Positions 3,502 to 20,635 of a stretch of DNA of 21,490 bases are shown here, piece after piece (position 1 is the first letter of the stretch; every line of letters begins with the position of its first letter). The notes under the pieces are model-generated. The model saw only the letters and a list, made by a program, of their open reading frames with translations. It did no database searches and was not told where the DNA came from. Made by a program: the position numbers and the translations under genes. Origin of the DNA: a virus; the IMG/VR virus record IMGVR_UViG_3300012925_000020, positions 1 through 21,490 of that record. One strand, given 5' to 3'.

Positions 3502-4038
3502 ATGGACTTGCAAATAGTAGAAACCGGAAACGGTGGGGACCTGGTTAAAAAAACGAAAGATCTGTTAACCATTGAAGGGTTTCAGAACATGCCGTATTTG
3601 GCCATGTTTGGCGGCAATGTTCGGGAAGATACCCCCACGCGGCGCATTGCCACACAACAGAATTTTGATTGGTGGGGAAACGGTTTGTTAATGCCGAACG
3701 ACCAAAGTTTGCAATTCAATTCCCAGACTGAAAGGGCATTAAACACCATCGCCCTAACAAGTTCAGGTCGGGCATTGATCGAACAAGCGGTAGCCGCTGA
3801 CCTGAAGTTCATGAAAGCCTTTGCGCAAGTGGCGGTGGCTGTTTCAATTGTGGCCACTGATAAATTGGTGATTGGCGTACGTCTGCAAAAGCCCGACAAC
3901 CTGGAACAGAGGGATTTTATTTACATCTGGGATGCGACGTTAAAGGAATTAACTTTACCGTATAGCGCCGGAAACGCTCCGGGCGTGCCCCCAGGAAATA
4001 CGGGTTTTGATTACAATTTAGACTTCAATTTTATATGA
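3502..4038 (+). CDS. Baseplate wedge protein, Mu gp46-like
   Basis: The 178-residue protein resembles the GP46 family of Mu-like phages, small baseplate wedge components related in role to T4 gp25. The visible clue is N-F-D-W-W-G-N (about residues 53-59), followed by a helical middle with a Gly-R-A-L-I-E-Q turn and a Val-rich strand segment. The position directly before a gp47-like baseplate gene matches Mu, where 46, 47 and 48 are consecutive. It begins one base after the tape measure stop and overlaps the next gene by ATGA (4035-4038), suggesting translational coupling. The C-terminus ends in an aromatic-rich segment with F-D-Y-N-L-D-F-N-F-I. Confidence 0.75.
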   Translation: MDLQIVETGNGGDLVKKTKDLLTIEGFQNMPYLAMFGGNVREDTPTRRIATQQNFDWWGNGLLMPNDQSLQFNSQTERALNTIALTSSGRALIEQAVAADLKFMKAFAQVAVAVSIVATDKLVIGVRLQKPDNLEQRDFIYIWDATLKELTLPYSAGNAPGVPPGNTGFDYNLDFNFI

Positions 4039-5213
4039 TCACGATTCCGACGATAACCCAACTTTACAACGACATTTTGGCGGACCTTCAGGCGGAATAC
4101 GGAACAGCTATACCAACTTTCGGGAAGAATTTTTTGCGGGTATTGGCCGCGGTTCAAGCTGCAAAGCTTAAACTTTATTATCTGGCCATAGGATTGCTAC
4201 AAAAGAACATTTTTGTGGACACCGCCGACCCGCAAAGTAGGGGTGGCACACTTGAAAGATTCGGCTTTGTGAAGCTGGGACGTTATCCTTTTACTGCGCT
4301 CGTTGGACAATACACAGTAACGGTAAACGGGACGGTTGGTGCCATCATTAAAGCATCCACCACCTTTAAAAGCAACGACGATTCTTTAAGCCCTGGGAAA
4401 TTGTTTATCCTGGATCAGGCCCACACGATGGTAAGTACAACGGATTCCATAACGCTGCGCGCGCTGGATGCCGGGATTGGCAGTAAATTGTTGGTGGCCG
4501 ATCAGCTTACGGCAACATCACCGATCGAAAACGCGAATAGATTGGCGACGGTAACGGTTCAGTTAATTGAACCTTTGGATGCTGAAGACATTGAAGCCTA
4601 TCGCCAAAAGACCATTGACGCTTATCGTTTGGAACCGAATGGTGGCGCAGCTTCAGATTATAGATTATGGGCCGCCGATGTTCAGGGAGTAAAACAGGCT
4701 TATCCGTATGCGAAAACCGGTGCGGCAAATGAGATAAATTTATTCATCGAAGCGACCATTGCGGATTCAATTGATGGCATGGGCACGCCTTCGGCATCGA
4801 TGTTGACCGATGTGGAAGCCGTGGTGGAGCTCGACCCGGACACCACGAAGCCAATAAATGAACGCGGCCGCCGGCCGCTGGGCATCTTCCAAGTGCATTA
4901 CCTTCCGGTGACAATCAGGCAAGTGGACATAGAGATTCCCGGATTTGTTGGGCTCACGCCTGCGATTCAAAATGCGATCCTGGCGGCAATCACTTCGCTG
5001 GTAAATGGGATACGACCGTTTGTAGCTGGTGCGGATGTTCTGGAAAGCAAAAATGACATCCTGGACACGAACCGGATTGCTTCCACAATCCTGGTGGTGC
5101 GTCCGGGCAGCACCTTCGGAACGCCTATTCTTTTGATTGATTCCGTGCCGGTTCTGACGTTTACGTTTATCAATGGGGACATTCCTTTTCTGAATTCTGT
5201 CACGTACACATGA
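4035..5213 (+). CDS. Baseplate J-like protein, Mu gp47-like
   Basis: This 392-residue protein fits the Baseplate_J family (P2 gpJ, Mu gp47, T4 gp6), which forms the wedge ring that holds the baseplate together and connects to the fibres. After a helical N-terminus there is a characteristic stretch about residues 70-140: R-G-G-T-L-E-R-F-G, a beta-rich G-T-V-G-A-I-I-K-A-S-T-T-F core, then repeated short strands. The segment around D-I-E-A-Y-R-Q-K-T-I-D-A-Y-R (near residue 185) and Y-P-Y-A-K also match the family pattern. The length is typical. The gene overlaps both neighbours by ATGA, placing it in a tightly coupled 46-47-48 set. Confidence 0.87.
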   Translation: MITIPTITQLYNDILADLQAEYGTAIPTFGKNFLRVLAAVQAAKLKLYYLAIGLLQKNIFVDTADPQSRGGTLERFGFVKLGRYPFTALVGQYTVTVNGTVGAIIKASTTFKSNDDSLSPGKLFILDQAHTMVSTTDSITLRALDAGIGSKLLVADQLTATSPIENANRLATVTVQLIEPLDAEDIEAYRQKTIDAYRLEPNGGAASDYRLWAADVQGVKQAYPYAKTGAANEINLFIEATIADSIDGMGTPSASMLTDVEAVVELDPDTTKPINERGRRPLGIFQVHYLPVTIRQVDIEIPGFVGLTPAIQNAILAAITSLVNGIRPFVAGADVLESKNDILDTNRIASTILVVRPGSTFGTPILLIDSVPVLTFTFINGDIPFLNSVTYT

Positions 5214-5914
5214 GCATAAAGGACAAAATTTTAGCGATCACTCGCCAGATGTATCCCAGCGGGCGGGCCTTTAAAATGCCCGAAGACAGTGAATTTGAAA
5301 AGATGCATAACGGCCTGGCCGCATCGGAGGAACGCGCCTATCAGGATGCCACCGCGATACTTTACAGCATTTTGCCGGATAACAACAATTTCACGGTGGA
5401 CGATGCCACCGATTGGGAACATAGGTTGGGGTTGATCACCAATCCGTTGGTGCCCCTGGCGGACCGTAAATTGGCCATCCTTAGAAAGATGAATCACCCG
5501 GGCACGGTGCCCGCGCGCGAGAACTTTCGGTTTCTGGAAAAGCAATTGCAGGATGCGGGGTTTGCTGTGTTCGTCTATGAAAATAGATTCCCTGACGGGA
5601 TGGGTGGATACATCACGATGACGGCGGAAGACGTTAGCGGCACCTCGCCGGTGAGCGTTCAGCATGGGGATATTCAACATGGGGATGCGCAACATGGTGG
5701 TGGAAATTTTGAACTTGTGGTAAATTATATCGATCCGGCATTGGATGCCGTGTTCAACATCGGCACAAATTTGCGAAGCACGTTCTTTATTGGCGGTGAT
5801 CCTTTGGGTACATTTGCCGACGTAGACGCCCAGCGGCGGGATGAATTCAGACAAATAATTTTGAAAACGAAGCCCGTTCAAACCGTGGCGATCTTGTTTA
5901 TAAACTACGTATAA
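5210..5914 (+). CDS. Baseplate protein, Mu gp48-like
   Basis: The 234-residue product resembles Mu gp48 / YmfQ-type (DUF2313) proteins, which sit at the baseplate edge near the fibres. The N-terminus (residues 1-120) has the usual pattern: an early P-S-G-R-A-F segment, an acidic helix, then D-D-A-T-D-W-E-H-R-L-G-L and R-K-L-A-I-L-R-K-M. The later part has F-L-E-K-Q-L-Q-D-A-G-F and ends with P-V-Q-T-V-A-I-L-F. An insert at residues 151-164 contains three pentapeptide units based on Q-H-G-D. The overlap ATGA with gp47-like and a 2-base gap to the following fibre-like gene suit one operon. Confidence 0.85.
   Translation: MSIKDKILAITRQMYPSGRAFKMPEDSEFEKMHNGLAASEERAYQDATAILYSILPDNNNFTVDDATDWEHRLGLITNPLVPLADRKLAILRKMNHPGTVPARENFRFLEKQLQDAGFAVFVYENRFPDGMGGYITMTAEDVSGTSPVSVQHGDIQHGDAQHGGGNFELVVNYIDPALDAVFNIGTNLRSTFFIGGDPLGTFADVDAQRRDEFRQIILKTKPVQTVAILFINYV
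5660..5700 (+). repeat. 15-base tandem repeat inside the gp48-like gene
   Basis: Two full units begin at 5660 and 5675 and a partial third at 5690. The unit has the form CARCATGGGGAT followed by three variable bases. In frame this encodes Q-H-G-D-x pentapeptides, in the order QHGDI, QHGDA, QHGGG. The unit is a multiple of three, so copy number could change without breaking the reading frame. Confidence 0.8.
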
Positions 5915-5916
5915 TC

Positions 5917-6639
5917 ATGGCTATCCCAATTACAGCAAAGCCCAATACCGTCGCACCTGGTGGGGCTTATCCTTACGGTAACATCCGCGACAATGATGGG
6001 TCCGGTAACGGCACGCCGGTGAACGCCCTGGTTTATGCTGACTTCCATCAATTCTTCGCGAAGCTTTTGGACGTCGGTGGTGTGGCGGCGAATGGACTGC
6101 CGGAAAATGCCACCAACACTTTCCAGTATGTCACGGCTTTAAACAACCTGATCACCATTTTTATAAACGTGGAGATTGCCGCCAGAAACGCGGCAATAGC
6201 CGTGGAGACAGGGAACCGAGTGGCTGCGGATGCTGGTTTGCAAACTCAAATAAACGACATCAATACAGCATTGGCGGCCATCCGCCATTTCGACGTTACG
6301 GCCAATACGAACAGCGGGGGAACGGCAACTACCATTATCACTATCCCCAGGACAGCGAATAAGACCATGCGCATCGACGCAAAATTAGTGTCGGTAGTTG
6401 TATCCGGGGGTGATCCGGCGGGTTCAGGATCTTCGGCATATTTGACGGCAAAATATAAAGATGTAGCTGGGACCGGAACCATTATTGGAGCGATTACTAC
6501 GGTTGATAGCGACATATCGGCCGCCGCCGCCGCTGTTCTTTCCTTTTCTGTGAGCGGATCGAATCTATTGGTGACAGCCCAGGCGGGCAGCGGGTCCGTT
6601 TACAAATGTCGGATTGTTGCGGATGTTATTGAAATTTAA
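5917..6639 (+). CDS. Short tail fibre-like protein
   Basis: This 240-residue protein has a tail-fibre style attachment region: residues 20-80 contain N-I-R-D-N-D-G, G-T-P-V-N-A-L-V-Y-A-D-F-H-Q-F-F-A-K-L and N-G-L-P-E-N, a pattern often found at the N-terminus of phage fibre or baseplate-distal proteins. An Ala-rich helix (82-122) leads to a beta-rich C-terminal domain (126-240) rich in Gly, Ser, Thr and Val that looks like a small jelly-roll or head domain. It follows the gp48-like gene by 2 bases, where Mu has its fibre genes. Its last 14 bases overlap the convergent metzincin gene. Receptor binding is an inference; it could instead be a structural baseplate extension. Confidence 0.6.
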   Translation: MAIPITAKPNTVAPGGAYPYGNIRDNDGSGNGTPVNALVYADFHQFFAKLLDVGGVAANGLPENATNTFQYVTALNNLITIFINVEIAARNAAIAVETGNRVAADAGLQTQINDINTALAAIRHFDVTANTNSGGTATTIITIPRTANKTMRIDAKLVSVVVSGGDPAGSGSSAYLTAKYKDVAGTGTIIGAITTVDSDISAAAAAVLSFSVSGSNLLVTAQAGSGSVYKCRIVADVIEI

Positions 6640-7063
6640 ACAGTTCATCAATGAGGGCTTCGCGCTGGGCTGCATCATTGTGATAGACCCCGGCATATGT
6701 GTTGGGGTTCATGATTGAAAAACTATCGTTGTGCTCACGGCCCATATAGTGGCCAAATTCGTGGTAAACCATATACTGAAGGGCGATAGGATCAGGCGAC
6801 CCGCTTCTAAAAAACGACTCGTTGATTGTGATTTTTGCGGTGTTGTTGGTTTTCTCACAACGGCCGGAAGTAGAGCAGGGGCCAATGACAACGGAAAGCA
6901 TATCCTTTTGAACCGGAATTCCGCGGTTTTCAGCTTCTTTAAAAAAGGCTGTTACGGCTTCCGAAAGGCGGGGATCAACATAAAAGTGTTCCTGATCAGC
7001 AAAATCTGAACAGCCTAAAAGACAGGTGGCGAGGAAAAGGAATGCGATGGTTTTCATGGACAT
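6626..7063 (-). CDS. Lipoprotein with metzincin zinc-protease motif (probable moron)
   Basis: This is the only reverse-strand gene. The 145-residue product starts with a lipoprotein signal: a basic start, hydrophobic residues 5-16 and lipobox L-L-G-C with Cys18 as the lipidated residue. The motif H-E-F-G-H-Y-M-G-R-E-H (101-111) matches HExxHxxGxxH, with three zinc-binding His and catalytic Glu102, and S-I-M-N-P (116-120) supplies the Met-turn. This combination defines metzincins and resembles matrixin-like proteases. The protein is small, with about 70 residues between signal and active site, and Cys63 and Cys69 could pair. Met3 (at 7057) is an equally good start. The opposite strand, its own leader and convergence with the fibre gene suggest a moron expressed in the lysogen. 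The substrate is unknown. Confidence 0.82.
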   Translation of the reverse strand: MSMKTIAFLFLATCLLGCSDFADQEHFYVDPRLSEAVTAFFKEAENRGIPVQKDMLSVVIGPCSTSGRCEKTNNTAKITINESFFRSGSPDPIALQYMVYHEFGHYMGREHNDSFSIMNPNTYAGVYHNDAAQREALIDELFKFQ

Positions 7064-7070
7064 ATATCTG

Positions 7071-7101
7071 ATTGACAGGATAAAGGTAAGTATTATATTT
7101 T
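7071..7101 (+). promoter_or_regulatory. Promoter candidate for the second tail operon
   Basis: TTGACA at 7072-7077 is followed after 16 bases by TATATT at 7094-7099. The same site also fits the Bacteroidota pattern, with ATTG at 7071-7074, 19 bases, then TATATTTT at 7094-7101, one base away from TAnnTTTG. The start of transcription would be about 7106-7108, roughly 10 bases before the ATG at 7117. Upstream forward transcription must cross an antisense gene to reach here, so a fresh promoter makes sense. On the reverse strand a perfect TATAAT (7097-7092) and TACCTTTA (7088-7081) are weak candidates for the metzincin promoter. Confidence 0.45.
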
Positions 7102-7116: not shown

Positions 7117-7830
7117 ATGAAATTCAACATCAACACGGACGCGGCTGTAAAATTCACCAACACCCTGGAAAAGATGCACCGTTCAGCCCTTCCGTCGGCA
7201 ATCCGGGCCACCCTGAACAGTGCCGCTTTTGATGTGAAACAAAACACAATGCCCCAGCAGGCCCGCCAGGACTTCACAAACAGGGCCCCAAATTTCTTTC
7301 GAGCGAATAGCAAAGTGTCAAAAGCTGATGGCTGGGACGTGAACAATATGCAATCTGTGGTGGGGTTTACACCGGGCAGCGGCCGGGCGGTCGATAAAGC
7401 CGTGGGCGAATTGGAACAGCAGGAATACGGGGGAAGCATTGGTGGCCGTGGATTTATTGCCATGGATGCCGCACGCGGGGGCGCGGGCGCGAAGCCGGTC
7501 CGCCCAGGGAACAGGCTTTCCAGAATACAAAACCTGATAGATTCAAAGAAATTCCCCGGAACTGCCAAAGCGCAATTTATTGCAGCGGCTAAAAAGGCAG
7601 GAAAGGGGGGCTTTGTTTTGGGCAATACTGCCCGCGGGACGGTATGGCGGATCGATTCAATAGGCCGTAGTGGGATTAAAAAAACGGCCATGTATTCATT
7701 TCGGAAGGGGCGCACGGTGCGGGTTGGGGCCACTCATTTCATGCAAACGGCAAGCCTTGAAAGTGCGAATAAAATGGATGACATTTACGCAAAGGAGGCC
7801 GCCCGACAAATCGACCGGTTAAACAAATGA
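7117..7830 (+). CDS. Minor tail / tail-completion protein, gpZ-like architecture
   Basis: The 237-residue basic protein begins with a helical region (residues 8-60) of the form A-V-K-F-T-N-T-L-E-K-M then L-P-S-A-I-R-A-T-L-N-S-A-A-F-D-V. This resembles the start of lambda gpZ and related tail-completion proteins, in which a two-helix N-terminus is followed by an Arg/Lys-rich beta region. The middle is Gly-rich (109-128), and the C-terminal 100 residues are strongly basic with K-K-T-A-M-Y-S-F-R-K-G-R-T-V-R-V near 186-201 and a final helix. It is the first gene after the divergent promoter island and overlaps the next by ATGA. The family assignment is from overall pattern; another neck or minor tail protein is possible. 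Confidence 0.5.
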   Translation: MKFNINTDAAVKFTNTLEKMHRSALPSAIRATLNSAAFDVKQNTMPQQARQDFTNRAPNFFRANSKVSKADGWDVNNMQSVVGFTPGSGRAVDKAVGELEQQEYGGSIGGRGFIAMDAARGGAGAKPVRPGNRLSRIQNLIDSKKFPGTAKAQFIAAAKKAGKGGFVLGNTARGTVWRIDSIGRSGIKKTAMYSFRKGRTVRVGATHFMQTASLESANKMDDIYAKEAARQIDRLNK

Positions 7831-9053: not shown

Positions 9054-10105
9054 TTTTAAAAATCAATGACCGCATCCGCACCCGGACGGTGAAATTTTTC
9101 AGTGACTTCGATTTAACGCTACGTTACGACGCGGTTGCGTCAGGCTTTGGTTTCAAAATGTACTTCGATCCGGACAACCTGGAACATAAGGAAATGTTGT
9201 GCATCGGTCACGATCACATAGCAACCCTTGAACATGAGGGGCAATTACTTTTGACCGGGTACATAATGAGCCAGGGATTTAATGATTCGAAGGAAACCGA
9301 ATTAGTGGGTATTTCGGGTTATTCTTTCCCGGGAATCCTGGAAGACTGCCAAATTCCGGTGGAGCTCTACCCGCTTCAATATGATGGGCTGACGCTGCGC
9401 GAGATTTCCCAAAAGTTGCTTTCTTATTTCCGGATCACCATGGTTGTGGATCCCAGCGTGTCGGCTGAAATGGACAAGGCCTATGAAAAGACCACGGCCG
9501 AACCTACGCAAACAATAAAAGAATACCTGGCGTCGCTGGCCGGTCAACGGAACATTGTGATAACCCACAATGAAAAAGGACACCTGGTATACACAAAGGC
9601 AAAGACCAACCGGAAACCAATTTTGGATTACAACGGGGAAATACCGTTCACCAACATGGCGTTGGACTTTGGTGGCCAGGATATGCACTCGACCATCACG
9701 GTGATAAAACAAGCTGATTCTAAAGGAGGCAATGCCGGCGAGGCAACGGTAACAAATCCTTTCGTGCCCTTTGTCAGGCGCCCGCGCGTGGCCACGCAAA
9801 GTTCGGGGGATGACAACGACACCTTGGAGGTCGCAAAAAACATCCTGGCGGATGAACTTCGCGGGTTAAAATTAACCATCACCTCGGATCGCTGGGACGT
9901 GAATGGCGTGATTGTAAAGCCCAATAACCTGATAACCGTGAAAAACCCACGGATATATCTTTACAAAAAGGCCACCTGGTTTATTGAGCAAGTGGACTAT
10001 AAAGGGGACGAGAAAAACCAAACCCTGACAATGACATGTTGTTTGCCGGAAGTGTATTCAGCAGCCGAGCCCACCTATCTTTTCAAAGGAATAAACATGC
10101 ACTAA
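9050..10105 (+). CDS. Baseplate hub protein, Mu gpP (gp44)-like
   Basis: The 351-residue protein matches the hub proteins of Mu-like and P2-like tails (related to T4 gp27), which form the ring joining tube and spike. Visible family features are the beta-rich N-terminus with L-L-L-T-G-Y-I-M and S-G-Y-S-F-P-G-I-L-E-D-C-Q-I-P (about residues 65-103), the short helical L-T-L-R-E-I-S-Q-K-L-L-S-Y-F-R-I segment, then P-T-Q-T-I-K-E-Y-L-A-S-L-A near 153. The C-terminal region returns to beta structure with W-F-I-E-Q-V-D-Y near 322. It lies between gpN-like and gp45-like genes, as in Mu, with a 1-base gap downstream. Confidence 0.85.
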   Translation: MILKINDRIRTRTVKFFSDFDLTLRYDAVASGFGFKMYFDPDNLEHKEMLCIGHDHIATLEHEGQLLLTGYIMSQGFNDSKETELVGISGYSFPGILEDCQIPVELYPLQYDGLTLREISQKLLSYFRITMVVDPSVSAEMDKAYEKTTAEPTQTIKEYLASLAGQRNIVITHNEKGHLVYTKAKTNRKPILDYNGEIPFTNMALDFGGQDMHSTITVIKQADSKGGNAGEATVTNPFVPFVRRPRVATQSSGDDNDTLEVAKNILADELRGLKLTITSDRWDVNGVIVKPNNLITVKNPRIYLYKKATWFIEQVDYKGDEKNQTLTMTCCLPEVYSAAEPTYLFKGINMH

Positions 10106-10981: not shown

Positions 10982-12725
10982 GTATCAGACAAAAGCCCAA
11001 AAACAGGCAAGCTTTAACGATCGTCTCCACGCGCACACGCGCGCGGGATCTTTCGGCGGCATGCCGGAAAAATCAATCGTTCCGACCATTGTGGCAGAAG
11101 CGGAACCGGTCCGCGAGAACGGGAACATGGCCCAGCCGAAAAGTGCGAACTTCTTTTGGGGGTCCACGGGGATGTCGCGTTTCATGTTTGCCACCGGATT
11201 CGATGGGGAGAAAAATTTGGGTGAACTAGGCCCGATAAAATCATATTTTCCGCTTTATGATTTCTTGCGCCTGCGCTCCTGGCAAGCCATGATGGAAAGC
11301 GAATTGGCGCAGATAGTTATGGGCCGTTACCTGACGTGGGTGGTTGGTAGTGGATTAAAGCTACAGGCCGAACCGTCAAAACGGGTGCTGAAGGATGAGG
11401 GCATAACGCTGGACGTAACCGATTTTTCCGAAACGGTAGAATCCCGCTTTTCGGTTTTCGCTGATCTAAAGGAAACGGATTATGCTCGAATGAATGACCT
11501 GAACACGCAGGCCAGTGACGCGTTGAAAAATGCCATCATTGGCGGGGACGTGCTGGTGGTGCTGCGTTATGAAAGTAAAAATATCACCCTTCAATTGATA
11601 GATGGTTGCCATGTTGTTTCACCACCGGGTCAGCCCGGAAATGATATTTTTGCCCCGGTCCTCCCCAATGGTAACCGCATTATAAACGGGATAGAGCTTT
11701 CCCCGAAGAATCAACACATTGCGTATTACGTCAGAAAATCAGCCCTGGAAGGGAATGAACAATTGAGTTTTGAAACGGTACGCATCGCCGCCAGGGGCAC
11801 GGGTAAAAACGACAACCTGGTGACGGCGTTCATGATATACGGTTCCAAATATCGCCTGGACAACCATCGCGGGTTGCCGCTTATCGGCGTGATGCTGGAA
11901 ACGATGAAGAAATTGGAGCGCTACAAGGAAGCCACTGTGGGCAGTGCCGAAGAGCGTGCGAAGGTGCCATGGACAATTGAACACGCTTTGGGGTCCACCG
12001 GAGAAAACCCCATGATGAAGCAAATCGCCACCGCCTGGGGAACACCTGACGAAGATATTCCGGCCACAATAGAAGGCCAACGACTGGCCGATAAAGTGGC
12101 AGCGACCACAAACAAATCGGTTTATAACCTGCCAATCGCTTCTAAAATGACGGCATTGGACAGTAAACAGGAAATCAATTTTCCGGGATTTTACGGCACC
12201 AACATTGACATTTTTTGTGCGGCCATAGAGATCCCGCCAAACGTGGCCATGCAAAAATATGATGCCAATTTTTCGGCCAGTCGCGCGGCGCTGAAGGATT
12301 GGGAGCACACTTTGCAGGTGAAGCGGAAAAATTTCCAACGCCAGTTCTATCAGAATGTTTACAACTTTTGGATGGACATTCAAATTATGATCGGCGTCAT
12401 CGTGGCCCCAGGATATTTACAGGCGAAGTTTTCGAGCAATTACATGGTGATGGGAGCATACCGGAAATGTCGATTTGTGGGCGCGAGCGTTCCCCACATC
12501 GATCCGGTAAAAGAGGTCACTGCCGAACGCATGAAGCTGGGCGTAACCGGCGCGGCGATCCCGTTGACGACTGCGGAAGCTGCCACGGAATCCCTGAATG
12601 GTGGGGATTTTAATGCGAATTTGGAGCAATACGAAGACGAATTGGCACGCACAACGGAAGCCGGAATAGAAGTGCCCGTACCCGCTGGGCCTGCTGAGAA
12701 AGCGCCGGCGAAGGTGGAGGCATAA
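10971..12725 (+). CDS. Portal protein, lambda gpB family
   Basis: This 584-residue protein matches lambda-type portals, the dodecameric ring through which DNA enters and leaves the capsid. Family features seen are the early helical core with R-S-W-Q-A-M-M-E-S (102-110), G-S-G-L-K-L-Q-A (126-133), N-F-S-A-S-R-A-A-L (433-441), equivalent to the conserved Y-S-S-x-R-A segment, and V-P-H-I-D-P-V-K-E (507-515), equivalent to the W-x-x-I-D-P-x-K segment. The length is typical. The C-terminal 30 residues are Pro/Ala/Glu-rich and probably disordered. It starts within the end of the gpW-like gene. No terminase gene precedes it, which is unusual. Confidence 0.95.
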   Translation: MENKYQTKAQKQASFNDRLHAHTRAGSFGGMPEKSIVPTIVAEAEPVRENGNMAQPKSANFFWGSTGMSRFMFATGFDGEKNLGELGPIKSYFPLYDFLRLRSWQAMMESELAQIVMGRYLTWVVGSGLKLQAEPSKRVLKDEGITLDVTDFSETVESRFSVFADLKETDYARMNDLNTQASDALKNAIIGGDVLVVLRYESKNITLQLIDGCHVVSPPGQPGNDIFAPVLPNGNRIINGIELSPKNQHIAYYVRKSALEGNEQLSFETVRIAARGTGKNDNLVTAFMIYGSKYRLDNHRGLPLIGVMLETMKKLERYKEATVGSAEERAKVPWTIEHALGSTGENPMMKQIATAWGTPDEDIPATIEGQRLADKVAATTNKSVYNLPIASKMTALDSKQEINFPGFYGTNIDIFCAAIEIPPNVAMQKYDANFSASRAALKDWEHTLQVKRKNFQRQFYQNVYNFWMDIQIMIGVIVAPGYLQAKFSSNYMVMGAYRKCRFVGASVPHIDPVKEVTAERMKLGVTGAAIPLTTAEAATESLNGGDFNANLEQYEDELARTTEAGIEVPVPAGPAEKAPAKVEA

Positions 12726-16985: not shown

Positions 16986-19436
16986 ATGCCTTCAATAACC
17001 TACCCAGACAAAAGCAAATTCGATCCGGAAGGAACCCCAGACCGGCAGTGGAGAGACGTGGACGCCAACGAAGTGAAATTGGTGGTCAACGCGAAGCAAG
17101 ATGATTCCACGAATCTCACGGCCATTGCTGCGATTTCTACCAATGGGTATTTGAAACGCACCGGCCCGGGCTCCTGGGCAGTGGACGCAGGACCGTGGCC
17201 ATCACTGGCCGGGTTCATTGACTTCGCTGGCAACCGCCTGGGGAACCTGACGGACCCGGTGGGTGCGCAGGATGCCGATACGAAGGCCGCCAGGGATGCC
17301 GCTATTGCCACGGCGCTGGCCGCCATAGACGCGTTCGTTTTCAAGGGCGGTATAGATGCTTCGACCGAACCGGATTATCCTGCGGCCGACGCTGGATGGA
17401 CCTACAAGTTCACAGCGGACGGGAAGATTGGCGGCGCTGCGGGTATCGCGGTGAAAAGTGGAGACTCGATAATTTGTACCGAAGACGGCACGCCATCGGG
17501 AGATCAGGCCACCGTTGGGGACAAATGGATTATCATTCGCTCGAACCTAGACGGCGTGGTGATAGGGCCCAATGTAGCGGTCGATGAAAGGATTGCGGTT
17601 TTTGATCTGACCACCGGCAAGCTGATCAAGGACGGCGGCATGACTATCGCAGATGTGCTTGGTTATGCTGATGCTGGGGATGCTTTTGTCCAACAATATG
17701 CCGAGCAGATTACATCGTATGTGCCTGTTAAACAAGCGATGGATTGTGCGACTACTTCAGCTTTGCCGGCATATACAGCTTTTGTTGGTACAACAACACA
17801 ACTATTTGCCGACGTAAACGGATATTTCCCTTCAACGGACAGTGTCCTAAATGACGCAACGCATACGATTAGTAGAGTTTTGGTTAAGAATGAAGTTGGC
17901 GCCAATGCTAAGTATAATGGGACCTGGATTTTGCTATCCAAAGGCTCACCGTCAACCAAATGGCAATTAGGCAGGACGCTTGATTCGCAGGCAAATGGCA
18001 CAGACGGTCACGGGCTTGAGTTTGCTGAGGTGACTATTATCGCCGGGACGGTTAATGGAGGTAAAAGATTCAGACAGGAGAATGTGCCTATAGTTCTTGA
18101 TACGACAGATATACTATGGGTTGACCGTACGCCGATTACTGGCGGAACGGTTCCGGTTAAGGCCACGGCCGCTGAATTAAATACGGGTATAGATGATGCT
18201 AAGTTTGCCACCGCGTTTGGGCTTGAAGGATCGAAATACATCACACAAAGAGGCGGAAAGGTATACGCGGCAACATCGGGCACGAATACATACACAGTTT
18301 CTTTGACGCCGGCAATTACTGCATACACGGCAGGTCTATCGCTTAAAATAAAATTCGGGAATACAAACACGGGAGCATCTACATTGAATGTTGACGGACT
18401 TGGAGCAATATCAATGAAGAAGAACGTAAGCCTTGCGCTTGAAGCTAATGATCTGGTTACGGGTGGTATATACGAATGCGTCTATGACGGAACAAATTTC
18501 CAAGTCATAGGCCTGGCGGCTACAAGCGTTCCGAGTGCAAGCGAATCCACACAGGGCATTGCTGAAATCGCTACACAGGCAGAAACAAATGCGGGGACTG
18601 ACGATGCGCGTATAGTTACGCCCCTGAAGATTCAAGTAAAGAATGGTTTAAGGGCAACAAAGACCGCAAACTACCCTATTGTTTCTGGCGATAATCAAAC
18701 ACAAATAACTGCTAATTCTGCAAGCGTAATTAATATAACCATAGATCAGATGAGTACTGATTATTGGGTATGCGTTGTAAATATTGGGGCGGGGCAGGTT
18801 AATTTTGTGGCCGGATCAGGAGTAACATTATCGGGAATCTCATCCATTCCAGGCGGAACCAAAGGAGGGGTTTTTATTTGGTTTTCATCAGCCACCACTG
18901 CGTATATTTTTGGTTCTGGGGATGTTTCTTTCACAGATGTCATAAATCGCCCGACAACTATTTCTGGGTACGGTATTTCTAATGGTGTATCTATTATTTT
19001 CAATACCGGAACTACAGTTGGAAATGTTGGCACTGGAGAAGATGACCTACACACGTTTAGTGTGCCGGCTGGGACTATGTCGAATGATGGGGAGACTCTT
19101 ATTTTTGAATCAGCCGGAAGATTTGCAACTTCAGTTAACAACAAAAGAGTTAGGGTTCGATTTGGAGCTACAGTTGTTTTTGACTCTGCATCAATTGCGG
19201 TCACCACACAAGCTGATTGGGCTGTGCGTGTTTCTGTTTACCGTACCGGGGCATCAACACAAAGATGTATCGCCACATTTACAAGTGGATCCGCCGTTCT
19301 TTCGGTAACAAGTCAGTACGCAACAGCGGCGGAGAACCTAAGCGGGGCGATAACATTTAAAGTTACTGGCGAGGCCACGTCTAATGATGATGTTCAGGCT
19401 TTCTTTACTAAAATTAGAAAGGAGGGTTACGCATGA
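16986..19436 (+). CDS. Large tail fibre protein, mosaic
   Basis: The 816-residue protein has typical fibre modules. Residues 1-120 form an attachment part with G-N-L-T-D-P-V-G-A-Q-D-A-D-T-K (86-100), the common hinge before fibre shafts. Residues 120-250 include a carbohydrate-fibre type strand region. Later modules are S-T-Q-G-I-A-E-I-A-T-Q-A-E-T-N-A-G-T-D (521-539), N-R-P-T-T-I-S-G-Y-G-I-S (654-665) and a C-terminal receptor-binding type domain (670-816) with T-G-E-D-D-L-H-T-F-S-V-P-A-G-T and N-N-K-R-V-R-V-R-F-G. Near base 17640 (residue about 220) the DNA becomes much more A/T-rich, indicating that the distal part came from elsewhere. It probably decides host range. The gene ends in an SD-like sequence and overlaps the SGNH gene by 4 bases. 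Confidence 0.85.
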   Translation: MPSITYPDKSKFDPEGTPDRQWRDVDANEVKLVVNAKQDDSTNLTAIAAISTNGYLKRTGPGSWAVDAGPWPSLAGFIDFAGNRLGNLTDPVGAQDADTKAARDAAIATALAAIDAFVFKGGIDASTEPDYPAADAGWTYKFTADGKIGGAAGIAVKSGDSIICTEDGTPSGDQATVGDKWIIIRSNLDGVVIGPNVAVDERIAVFDLTTGKLIKDGGMTIADVLGYADAGDAFVQQYAEQITSYVPVKQAMDCATTSALPAYTAFVGTTTQLFADVNGYFPSTDSVLNDATHTISRVLVKNEVGANAKYNGTWILLSKGSPSTKWQLGRTLDSQANGTDGHGLEFAEVTIIAGTVNGGKRFRQENVPIVLDTTDILWVDRTPITGGTVPVKATAAELNTGIDDAKFATAFGLEGSKYITQRGGKVYAATSGTNTYTVSLTPAITAYTAGLSLKIKFGNTNTGASTLNVDGLGAISMKKNVSLALEANDLVTGGIYECVYDGTNFQVIGLAATSVPSASESTQGIAEIATQAETNAGTDDARIVTPLKIQVKNGLRATKTANYPIVSGDNQTQITANSASVINITIDQMSTDYWVCVVNIGAGQVNFVAGSGVTLSGISSIPGGTKGGVFIWFSSATTAYIFGSGDVSFTDVINRPTTISGYGISNGVSIIFNTGTTVGNVGTGEDDLHTFSVPAGTMSNDGETLIFESAGRFATSVNNKRVRVRFGATVVFDSASIAVTTQADWAVRVSVYRTGASTQRCIATFTSGSAVLSVTSQYATAAENLSGAITFKVTGEATSNDDVQAFFTKIRKEGYA
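19418..19426 (+). promoter_or_regulatory. Strong Shine-Dalgarno sequence for the SGNH hydrolase gene
   Basis: AAAGGAGGG ends 6 bases before the ATG at 19433, a nearly ideal Shine-Dalgarno site. No other gene in the window has one of comparable strength. It lies inside the last codons of the fibre gene (K-E-G-Y-A). Bacteroidota generally use little Shine-Dalgarno pairing, so this stands out. Confidence 0.7.
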
Positions 19437-20635
19437 GACGTTTTTTTCCTGGTATATTTTCTCGCGGTCTTGATCTGCCCACGGTACCACTCGGGGTATT
19501 ACTAAACGATTCGTTCGATAGATTATCATTAGGCTCTGACTATACAGTTCTAGGCACGCCAACTATTAGTATGGATGGCGCTGATTTAATTGTTAGCGGT
19601 GGCACTGGTGGTGTATATACTAATAGAATAAATTGGAATAAGTACGCTCAGTGTCTTACTAAATTTAAAATCACACTCCCCTATCAACAAGTAGACAATA
19701 CTTCTACGAGTACTGGCCCTGCCATTGGTACAAAAACATTAAACACTGCGGAGTCATTGCGCAGATCATTTTTAGGTATTGCTCTTTCCACCACTGGTGC
19801 CAGTGAGGGCAAGATCACGTTACAGGCTGGTAATACTACGGCCGATGGATTTGTTGGTGCTGTAACTTCTGGCACAACCGCTGTTATAGTTGCTGGAGAT
19901 GAATTAGTATTTATCTTCGAAAGGAACGGAAACACGTATACGGGAACCCTTACAAACATTACACAATCTTATTCCAGGAATTTATCATACACTGCAATAC
20001 CGCCTAGCGGTCCATCGCAGAGTATTAATAACATGGGTAATTTTGCGATTTGGATATTGGGCGGTACGCAGAATATTCACAGTTTTAAGATAGAATCGGA
20101 TACCTTAAAAAACCCCAATGCTATATTTATTGGTGACTCAATAACATCTGGGTTCTTTGCGACTAGCTATACGGGAAAATTTGCAGATCAGGTAGCATTC
20201 AATAAAGGTTGGTCATTTGAAGTACTGGCAGGCCCTAGCGATTACGTAGTTGGGTACAACGATACTAAAGCCAGGGATTTTTTCGGCCTATTTACTCCCG
20301 GAAGATTCCTTGTAATGACTGGTGGGAATGACTTGTTTTTCGGATACTCTTTATCAACTGTGCAAAGCAATTACACAGTTTTTATAAATTATCTTAAATC
20401 ACGCGGTGCATCAGTTGTGCACTTGTTAGCTACGCCACGGAACAATATAGATTTGACCGCTTGGAATGCCTGGTTGGTTTCTAACTATGGTAGCACCGAT
20501 TTAGTCATAGACACATACACGCCTTTAAAGGGCGCGGGCACAGGCATTAGCCCCACATATGATAACGGTGATGGAGTCCATCCCAATCAAGCTGGCCATA
20601 ATCTGATAGCATCAACTATAATCTCGGCATTATGA
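19433..20635 (+). CDS. SGNH/GDSL-family esterase, fibre-associated
   Basis: This 400-residue protein has an N-terminal beta-rich domain (about 20-222), possibly a lectin-like or fibre-attachment sandwich, and a C-terminal SGNH hydrolase domain (about 228-400). Catalytic blocks are visible: F-I-G-D-S-I-T (232-238, nucleophile Ser236), a Gly in A-G-P-S-D (266-270, block II), T-G-G-N-D (296-300, Asn299), and D-G-V-H-P-N (380-385, with Asp380 and His383). SGNH enzymes often remove acetyl groups from polysaccharides or cut esters. As a fibre neighbour it may trim surface glycans during attachment, which is inference. There is no signal peptide. DNA is A/T-rich compared with neighbours. It overlaps the fibre gene by ATGA and the next gene by ATGA. 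Confidence 0.85.
   Translation: MRRFFPGIFSRGLDLPTVPLGVLLNDSFDRLSLGSDYTVLGTPTISMDGADLIVSGGTGGVYTNRINWNKYAQCLTKFKITLPYQQVDNTSTSTGPAIGTKTLNTAESLRRSFLGIALSTTGASEGKITLQAGNTTADGFVGAVTSGTTAVIVAGDELVFIFERNGNTYTGTLTNITQSYSRNLSYTAIPPSGPSQSINNMGNFAIWILGGTQNIHSFKIESDTLKNPNAIFIGDSITSGFFATSYTGKFADQVAFNKGWSFEVLAGPSDYVVGYNDTKARDFFGLFTPGRFLVMTGGNDLFFGYSLSTVQSNYTVFINYLKSRGASVVHLLATPRNNIDLTAWNAWLVSNYGSTDLVIDTYTPLKGAGTGISPTYDNGDGVHPNQAGHNLIASTIISAL

Follow-up and report, generated by a model that had tools for sequence, protein, structure and literature searches.

Some phages encode a lipoprotein beside their receptor-binding gene and on the opposite strand. The llp gene of phage T5, which has an equivalent in BF23, lies on the plus strand next to pb5 on the minus strand, and infected cells produce the protein. 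Llp blocks FhuA, is small, and has no enzymatic activity (PMC9586334), and in T5 relatives the place of llp is filled by lipoprotein genes of unrelated sequence (PMC4728585). Similarly, the gene for Rtp45, an exclusion lipoprotein of phage Rtp, adjoins rtp44 and runs opposite to the tail genes (PMC12685063). Phage-encoded metallopeptidases have been described as well: Maribacter phage Molly, a flavobacterial phage, encodes Molly2_10 (199 aa), which is both a lipoprotein and a zinc metallopeptidase of the matrixin family (PMC8776804), and in Listeria a metzincin of phage origin, Mtz, acts at the cell envelope with its partner Tim (PMC8235301). A phage lipoprotein metallopeptidase and a phage-derived metzincin are thus already known, and the statement in the original prediction, made from the DNA letters, that no phage system of this form had been described was too strong. 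Here, we describe a protease family that differs from that of Molly and that, in part of its members, is encoded at the 3′ end of putative tail-fiber genes. In the open-licence papers searched, neither this family nor its fiber-linked cargo slot is described.

The DNA analyzed is an IMG/VR virus record of 21,490 bases (the window, meaning this whole stretch). Its structural proteins are ~25–55% identical to those of the Flavobacterium phages FCL-2, FCV-1, and FL-1 and the Cellulophaga phages phiSM and phi3ST:2, which makes Bacteroidota the most likely hosts; judging by its sheath, tube, and baseplate genes, the phage is most likely a myovirus. In the stretches searched, none of these five phages has a homolog of the protease described below. 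In the window, the tail block, from sheath to baseplate hubs, lies ahead of the portal-protease-capsid block, unlike the order in FCL-2 and phiSM, and this hub-to-portal order is common to most of the uncultured relatives, of which alignment of the portal protein gave 80. After a large fiber gene (16986–19436), the gene at 19433–20635 codes for a protein whose C-terminal domain is an SGNH/GDSL hydrolase (PF13472, E 2e-14) and which is probably a virion-borne esterase or depolymerase. The window has no integrase, yet a tyrosine integrase scored above the Pfam cut-off in six of the 20 records sampled, namely the window plus 19 relatives, including one protease carrier (L075; G418). Temperate members of the lineage probably exist, and the lysogen assumed in the original prediction is a guess.

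The only large gap in the contiguous row of plus-strand genes is filled by the sole minus-strand gene of the window, a 145-aa ORF with an ATG start (Table 1); in a survey of the 21,490 bases, all other minus-strand ORFs overlie plus-strand genes. It converges with the putative tail-fiber gene, the two sharing 14 bases at their 3′ ends, and a minor tail gene follows on the other side. The protein starts with MSMKTIAFLFLATCLLGC, ends its signal peptide in the lipobox L15-L-G-C18, and carries the zinc motif H101EFGHYMGREH111, followed by S116IMNP. The HExxHxxGxxH site, Met-turn, lipobox, solitary orientation, and location within the structural genes are all present as originally predicted. By sequence, the protein would be a bacterial lipoprotein bearing the HExxHxxGxxH/D signature of metzincins. 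Surface lipoproteins of Bacteroidota carry an export signal (LES) in which a polar or basic residue is followed by acidic ones, such as K-(D/E)2, SDDDD, or SDDFE (PMC5080379). The residues after Cys18 of the window protein are acidic, yet without two consecutive acidic residues, and homologs look alike (CTDFTDE and CADFVDD); these residues resemble the export signals without matching them and appear to fit them only loosely. No convincing Bacteroidota promoter motif (TANNTTTG) was found upstream of the protease gene. At 7072–7099 (+), a sigma-70-like TTGACA-N16-TATATT faces the minor tail gene and points away from the protease gene; as it borders the insert, it might re-establish transcription of the genes downstream.

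Table 1. Features of the protease locus and its neighbors in the window.
Feature	Position	Strand	Remarks
Predicted metzincin-fold lipoprotein, 145 aa	6626..7063	-	lipobox Cys18; zinc site H101/E102/H105/H111; Met-turn M118
Predicted signal peptide and lipobox LLGC, residues 1-18	7010..7063	-	mature N-terminus C-SDFADQE
Putative zinc-binding helix motif HEFGHYMGREH, residues 101-111	6731..6763	-	from protein sequence and alignment
Putative tail-fiber gene, 240 aa	5917..6639	+	attachment domain at the conserved N-terminus; C-terminus highly variable; placed like Mu gpS
Minor tail protein gene (phrog_4688)	7117..7830	+	other slot boundary; divergent start, 53 bases from protease start codon
Mu Gp48-like baseplate gene	5210..5914	+	weak PF10076 match; conserved upstream neighbor
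Baseplate_J gene	4035..5213	+	PF04865

Profile databases say little about the window protein. Its match to the Pfam matrixin family (PF00413) reaches 20.8 bits, below the gathering cut-off of 24, and by this measure it is not a member of matrixin family M10; an NCBIfam scan gave nothing near the cut-offs, and a PHROGs scan gave a single weak match to a nameless family. Its AlphaFold2 model (pLDDT 89.7), re-aligned to PDB structures, resembles snapalysin (Z 9.5 over 105 residues) and matrix metalloproteinases (Z 8–9), and the best entries listed are metzincins. A Foldseek search of the PDB was weaker (best E 2e-3), and the best match among predicted viral structures, an uncharacterized protein, comes from an uncultured tailed phage. 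Alignment, model, and re-alignment together support a predicted metzincin fold, and the proposal that the protein is a conserved peptidase of this fold carrying a lipoprotein signal is supported.

Relatives of the protease were found only after related phages had been collected through their portal protein and a profile had been built. Scans of viral and bacterial contigs with the window protein by itself returned no relative, nor did tblastn against cultured phages and plasmids, which gave no homolog in 50,697 cultured-phage genomes. A scan with a six-member alignment matched 59 viral loci or contigs from many phage lineages. Most members have 140–190 residues and a lipobox, and the family is captured neither by Pfam gathering scores nor by named PHROGs at meaningful scores. 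Two divergent copies occur in single phages (L130:7968-8423 and 12167-12682; L144:7965-8501 and 9126-9683). One ORF (L089:3086-3739) has an N-terminal extension without an evident lipobox at the start used; this start may be mis-called, or the anchor may be of a different type.

Across 53 aligned homologs, H101, E102, G104, H105, H111, and M118 never vary, C18 of the lipobox is >90% conserved, and mean column identity is just 23%. Loss of the zinc ligands was looked for, and they are kept in all aligned homologs; the zinc site of the original prediction stands, and only its canonical spacing proves peculiar to the window member. The family motif is HExxHx6H in 55 of the 58 sequences compared, typically HELGHxxLxRxH, which makes the x5 spacing of the window (HExxHxxGxxH) the exception and leaves the family as a whole a loose fit to the canonical signature. 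Between close homolog pairs, dN/dS is 0.03–0.26, showing purifying selection at the level of the coding sequence. A chance ORF or antisense shadow was considered and is ruled out by this conservation and the dN/dS of the homologs; because the same ligands, lipobox, and length recur in the same slot of related phages, the gene is more than a product of chance. The protein could also be an inactive decoy, a metzincin-like lipoprotein with a structural or vestigial zinc site that blocks a receptor by binding, like T5 Llp. This would be in keeping with the known exclusion lipoproteins, which are not enzymes, but a catalytic Glu and three His that stay invariant in so divergent a family make it most unlikely.

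By profile search, seven of the portal-derived relatives carry the protease (L007, L010, L012, L020, L021, L074, and L075). It sits between homologs of the putative fiber gene and the minor tail gene, except in L010, which is truncated and has it immediately ahead of the minor tail gene. It is antisense in six of them and sense in one (L021). Both flanking genes were recognized in 36 uncultured relatives: in 23 the slot is empty and the flanks abut, and in 13 it holds an insert. The insert is the protease in six (L007, L012, L020, L021, L074, and L075), another exported protein in four (an antisense lipoprotein in L037, an antisense signal-peptide protein in L039, and a sense lipoprotein in L085 and L086), and a small non-exported ORF in three (L025, L028, and L033); L074/L075 and L085/L086 are near-duplicates within these counts. 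From the six protease and four other exported inserts among the 13, we read the slot as a cargo site mostly for exported proteins. The protease gene has the marks of a moron, i.e. it is an extra gene at a precise site, in its own orientation, and missing in relatives. The clustering of homologs at this location, which the original prediction had proposed to check, was found. Since the slot is empty in most relatives, the protein is not a constant virion part, in line with the view in that prediction that it is not an obvious one. The three exported proteins of other kinds that were scanned (L037:5461-5874, L039:5188-5778, and L085:5591-5980) had no Pfam or PHROG match and are candidates for surface-acting cargo in their own right.

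The assignment of the upstream flank as a tail fiber rests on position and architecture, as no Pfam or PHROG family labels it a fiber. It comes after the Baseplate_J and Mu Gp48-like genes, a position that in Mu belongs to the fiber gene. Its first ~80 residues are conserved in relatives and the remainder is hypervariable; the model has low confidence (pLDDT 62), with a helical stretch and then a β-rich C-terminus, and this uncertainty precludes searching for similar folds. Presumably, the receptor-binding tip is encoded at the 3′ end of the gene. In 21 of the 59 viral loci, the protease lies within -60 to +36 nt of a fiber gene 3′ end, convergent in 13 and co-directional in eight, and ~12 of the 21 are distinct loci outside the lineage of the window. 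Neighbors were collected from five genes on each side of the protease, and because they were drawn from this span, constant adjacency to the fiber is unlikely to arise by chance. Elsewhere, including on contigs >100 kb, the protease gene has other neighbors, among them genes for ribonucleotide reductase, endonuclease VII, and baseplate proteins.

Such strict adjacency might point to an enzyme of the virion or the fiber, which would be packaged with or mature the adjacent fiber, or digest capsule at adsorption. Fiber chaperones in other phages are also encoded at the 3′ end of the fiber gene. Nevertheless, the lipoprotein signal would take the protein out of the cytoplasm, where virions are assembled, and the gene is missing in most relatives, mostly antisense in the lineage, and away from fibers in other phages, all of which leaves this explanation very unlikely. 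Strict co-inheritance of fiber and protease was also considered. It was suggested by the C-terminus of the window fiber, which among 9,130 ORFs matches one, the fiber beside the protease of an otherwise unrelated phage (L097). In the general test, however, protease similarity showed no significant correlation with fiber-tip similarity (Mantel r 0.12, p 0.10). We rejected strict co-inheritance on this test; since protease type and fiber-tip type do not co-vary, a strict match between the two is unsupported. Protease similarity cuts across phage lineage (L021 is closest to L098, L074 to L099, and the window to L128).

A scan of bacterial genomes found ~15 homologs, nearly all in Bacteroidota (Saprospiraceae, Cyclobacteriaceae, and Salinimicrobium included), and beside them no phage structural genes of the kind found in the window were recognized. 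Most of them are a longer version with an added C-terminal domain (L146-L160, e.g. L148:4742-5947), and a genome can have up to five matches (G005). The protease might therefore be a lysogenic conversion gene that benefits the host through nutrient proteolysis, defense against predators or toxins, or remodeling of biofilm or matrix, unconnected with phage receptors and with the fiber end as a mere permissive site. Bacterial homologs that often occur several to a genome, unrelated exported proteins in the same slot, the absence of co-variation with the fiber tip, and integrases in at least some of the lineage would all fit. Against this, the bacterial homologs are rare (5 of 396 Flavobacteriales genomes), and the homologs on >100 kb contigs and next to ribonucleotide reductase or other nucleotide-metabolism genes are in settings that look lytic, where a benefit for the lysogen would not apply. 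We consider a host benefit rather unlikely.

Superinfection exclusion is the reading that we tentatively favor, at somewhat less than an even chance: an outer-membrane-anchored metallopeptidase made by the infected or lysogenic cell would modify the cell surface, most likely the receptor. While the fold and the position beside the fiber gene are supported, we infer the activity, surface location, expression timing, substrate, and exclusion that this reading involves. The protease gene would be horizontally exchanged cargo that settles at the 3′ ends of tail-fiber genes in phages like that of the window. Its product, a lipoprotein that probably resides in the outer membrane and bears a minimal zinc peptidase domain of metzincin fold, would be synthesized in the infected or lysogenic cell separately from the late structural operon, given its opposite strand in most of the lineage (operon structure was judged by strand alone). 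Exported, lipidated, and retained in the envelope, it might cleave or remodel surface proteins, the likeliest target being the receptor or co-receptor bound by the adjacent tail fiber or by rival phages, thereby excluding superinfection and keeping progeny from being lost on debris and cells already infected. We favor exclusion because the homologs cluster in a slot adjoining the tail-fiber gene, which sets host range, and receptor proteolysis is the leading reading because of the parallels with T5 Llp and Rtp45. The invariant zinc ligands and Met-turn, the predicted fold, the purifying selection in homologs, the exported proteins in the slot, the hypervariable fiber C-terminus, the protease relationships that cross phage lineages, and the integrase of one carrier also speak for this reading. 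Counting against it are the lack of co-variation between protease and fiber tip, the non-fiber gene neighborhoods, the missing promoter match, and the loose export-signal fit, as well as the known exclusion lipoproteins themselves, which bind receptors without proteolysis.

An antisense orientation also bears on the possibility that the protease helps release, weakening the envelope or clipping surface or matrix proteins late so that virions get out. Degradation of extracellular matrix has been proposed for the Molly lipoprotein metallopeptidase (PMC8776804), and Listeria Mtz with Tim raises sensitivity to phage lysis (PMC8235301). In most of the lineage of the window, however, the gene is antisense to the late operon, and neither endolysins nor spanins appear among the 25 PHROG families most frequent in its neighbors; a role in release thus seems improbable. 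Within the favored exclusion reading, one specific form is a receptor-destroying enzyme, in which the tethered cargo protease would shave the protein receptor of the fiber off the infected cell. This form of proteolytic exclusion is possible but less likely than not. If true, it would give phages an equivalent of the receptor-destroying enzymes known from animal viruses, and widespread lipid-anchored proteases at the receptor-binding end of fibers would amount to catalytic editing of the host surface by phages. It would also offer a practical handle, as a clipped protein detected by proteomics would identify the receptor used by phages not yet in culture.

Compared with known systems, the phage family shares its predicted fold, HExxH zinc site, and Met-turn with snapalysin (MEROPS M7) and the matrixins (M10), while most of its members have one additional residue between the second and third His. 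Listeria Mtz differs in being secreted, the lipoprotein there being its TIMP-like partner Tim, in its CI/Cro control, and in its Gram-positive host; no link to a fiber has been described for it, and no TIMP-like partner was noticed at the window locus. Molly2_10 resembles the window protein as a lipoprotein and zinc metallopeptidase from a flavobacterial phage, but its motif is HEIAHVLGLGH and its gene, in a 124-kb phage, is not directly beside a fiber gene. We rejected membership of the Molly protein in the family, as the alignment is limited to 24 columns around the zinc site; Colly_1 had no match to the family profile. Like llp and the Rtp45 gene, the window protease gene is a lipoprotein gene beside a receptor-binding or putative fiber gene and, judged by strand, outside the late operon. 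The arrangement differs in that llp diverges from the 5′ side of pb5 whereas the protease gene abuts the 3′ end of the fiber gene, and no sequence relation is claimed. Rtp45, at ~6 kDa, is unlike the predicted window protease in that it is not a protease and blocks LptD by binding; both exclusion lipoproteins compared are of enterobacterial phage origin and work through binding.
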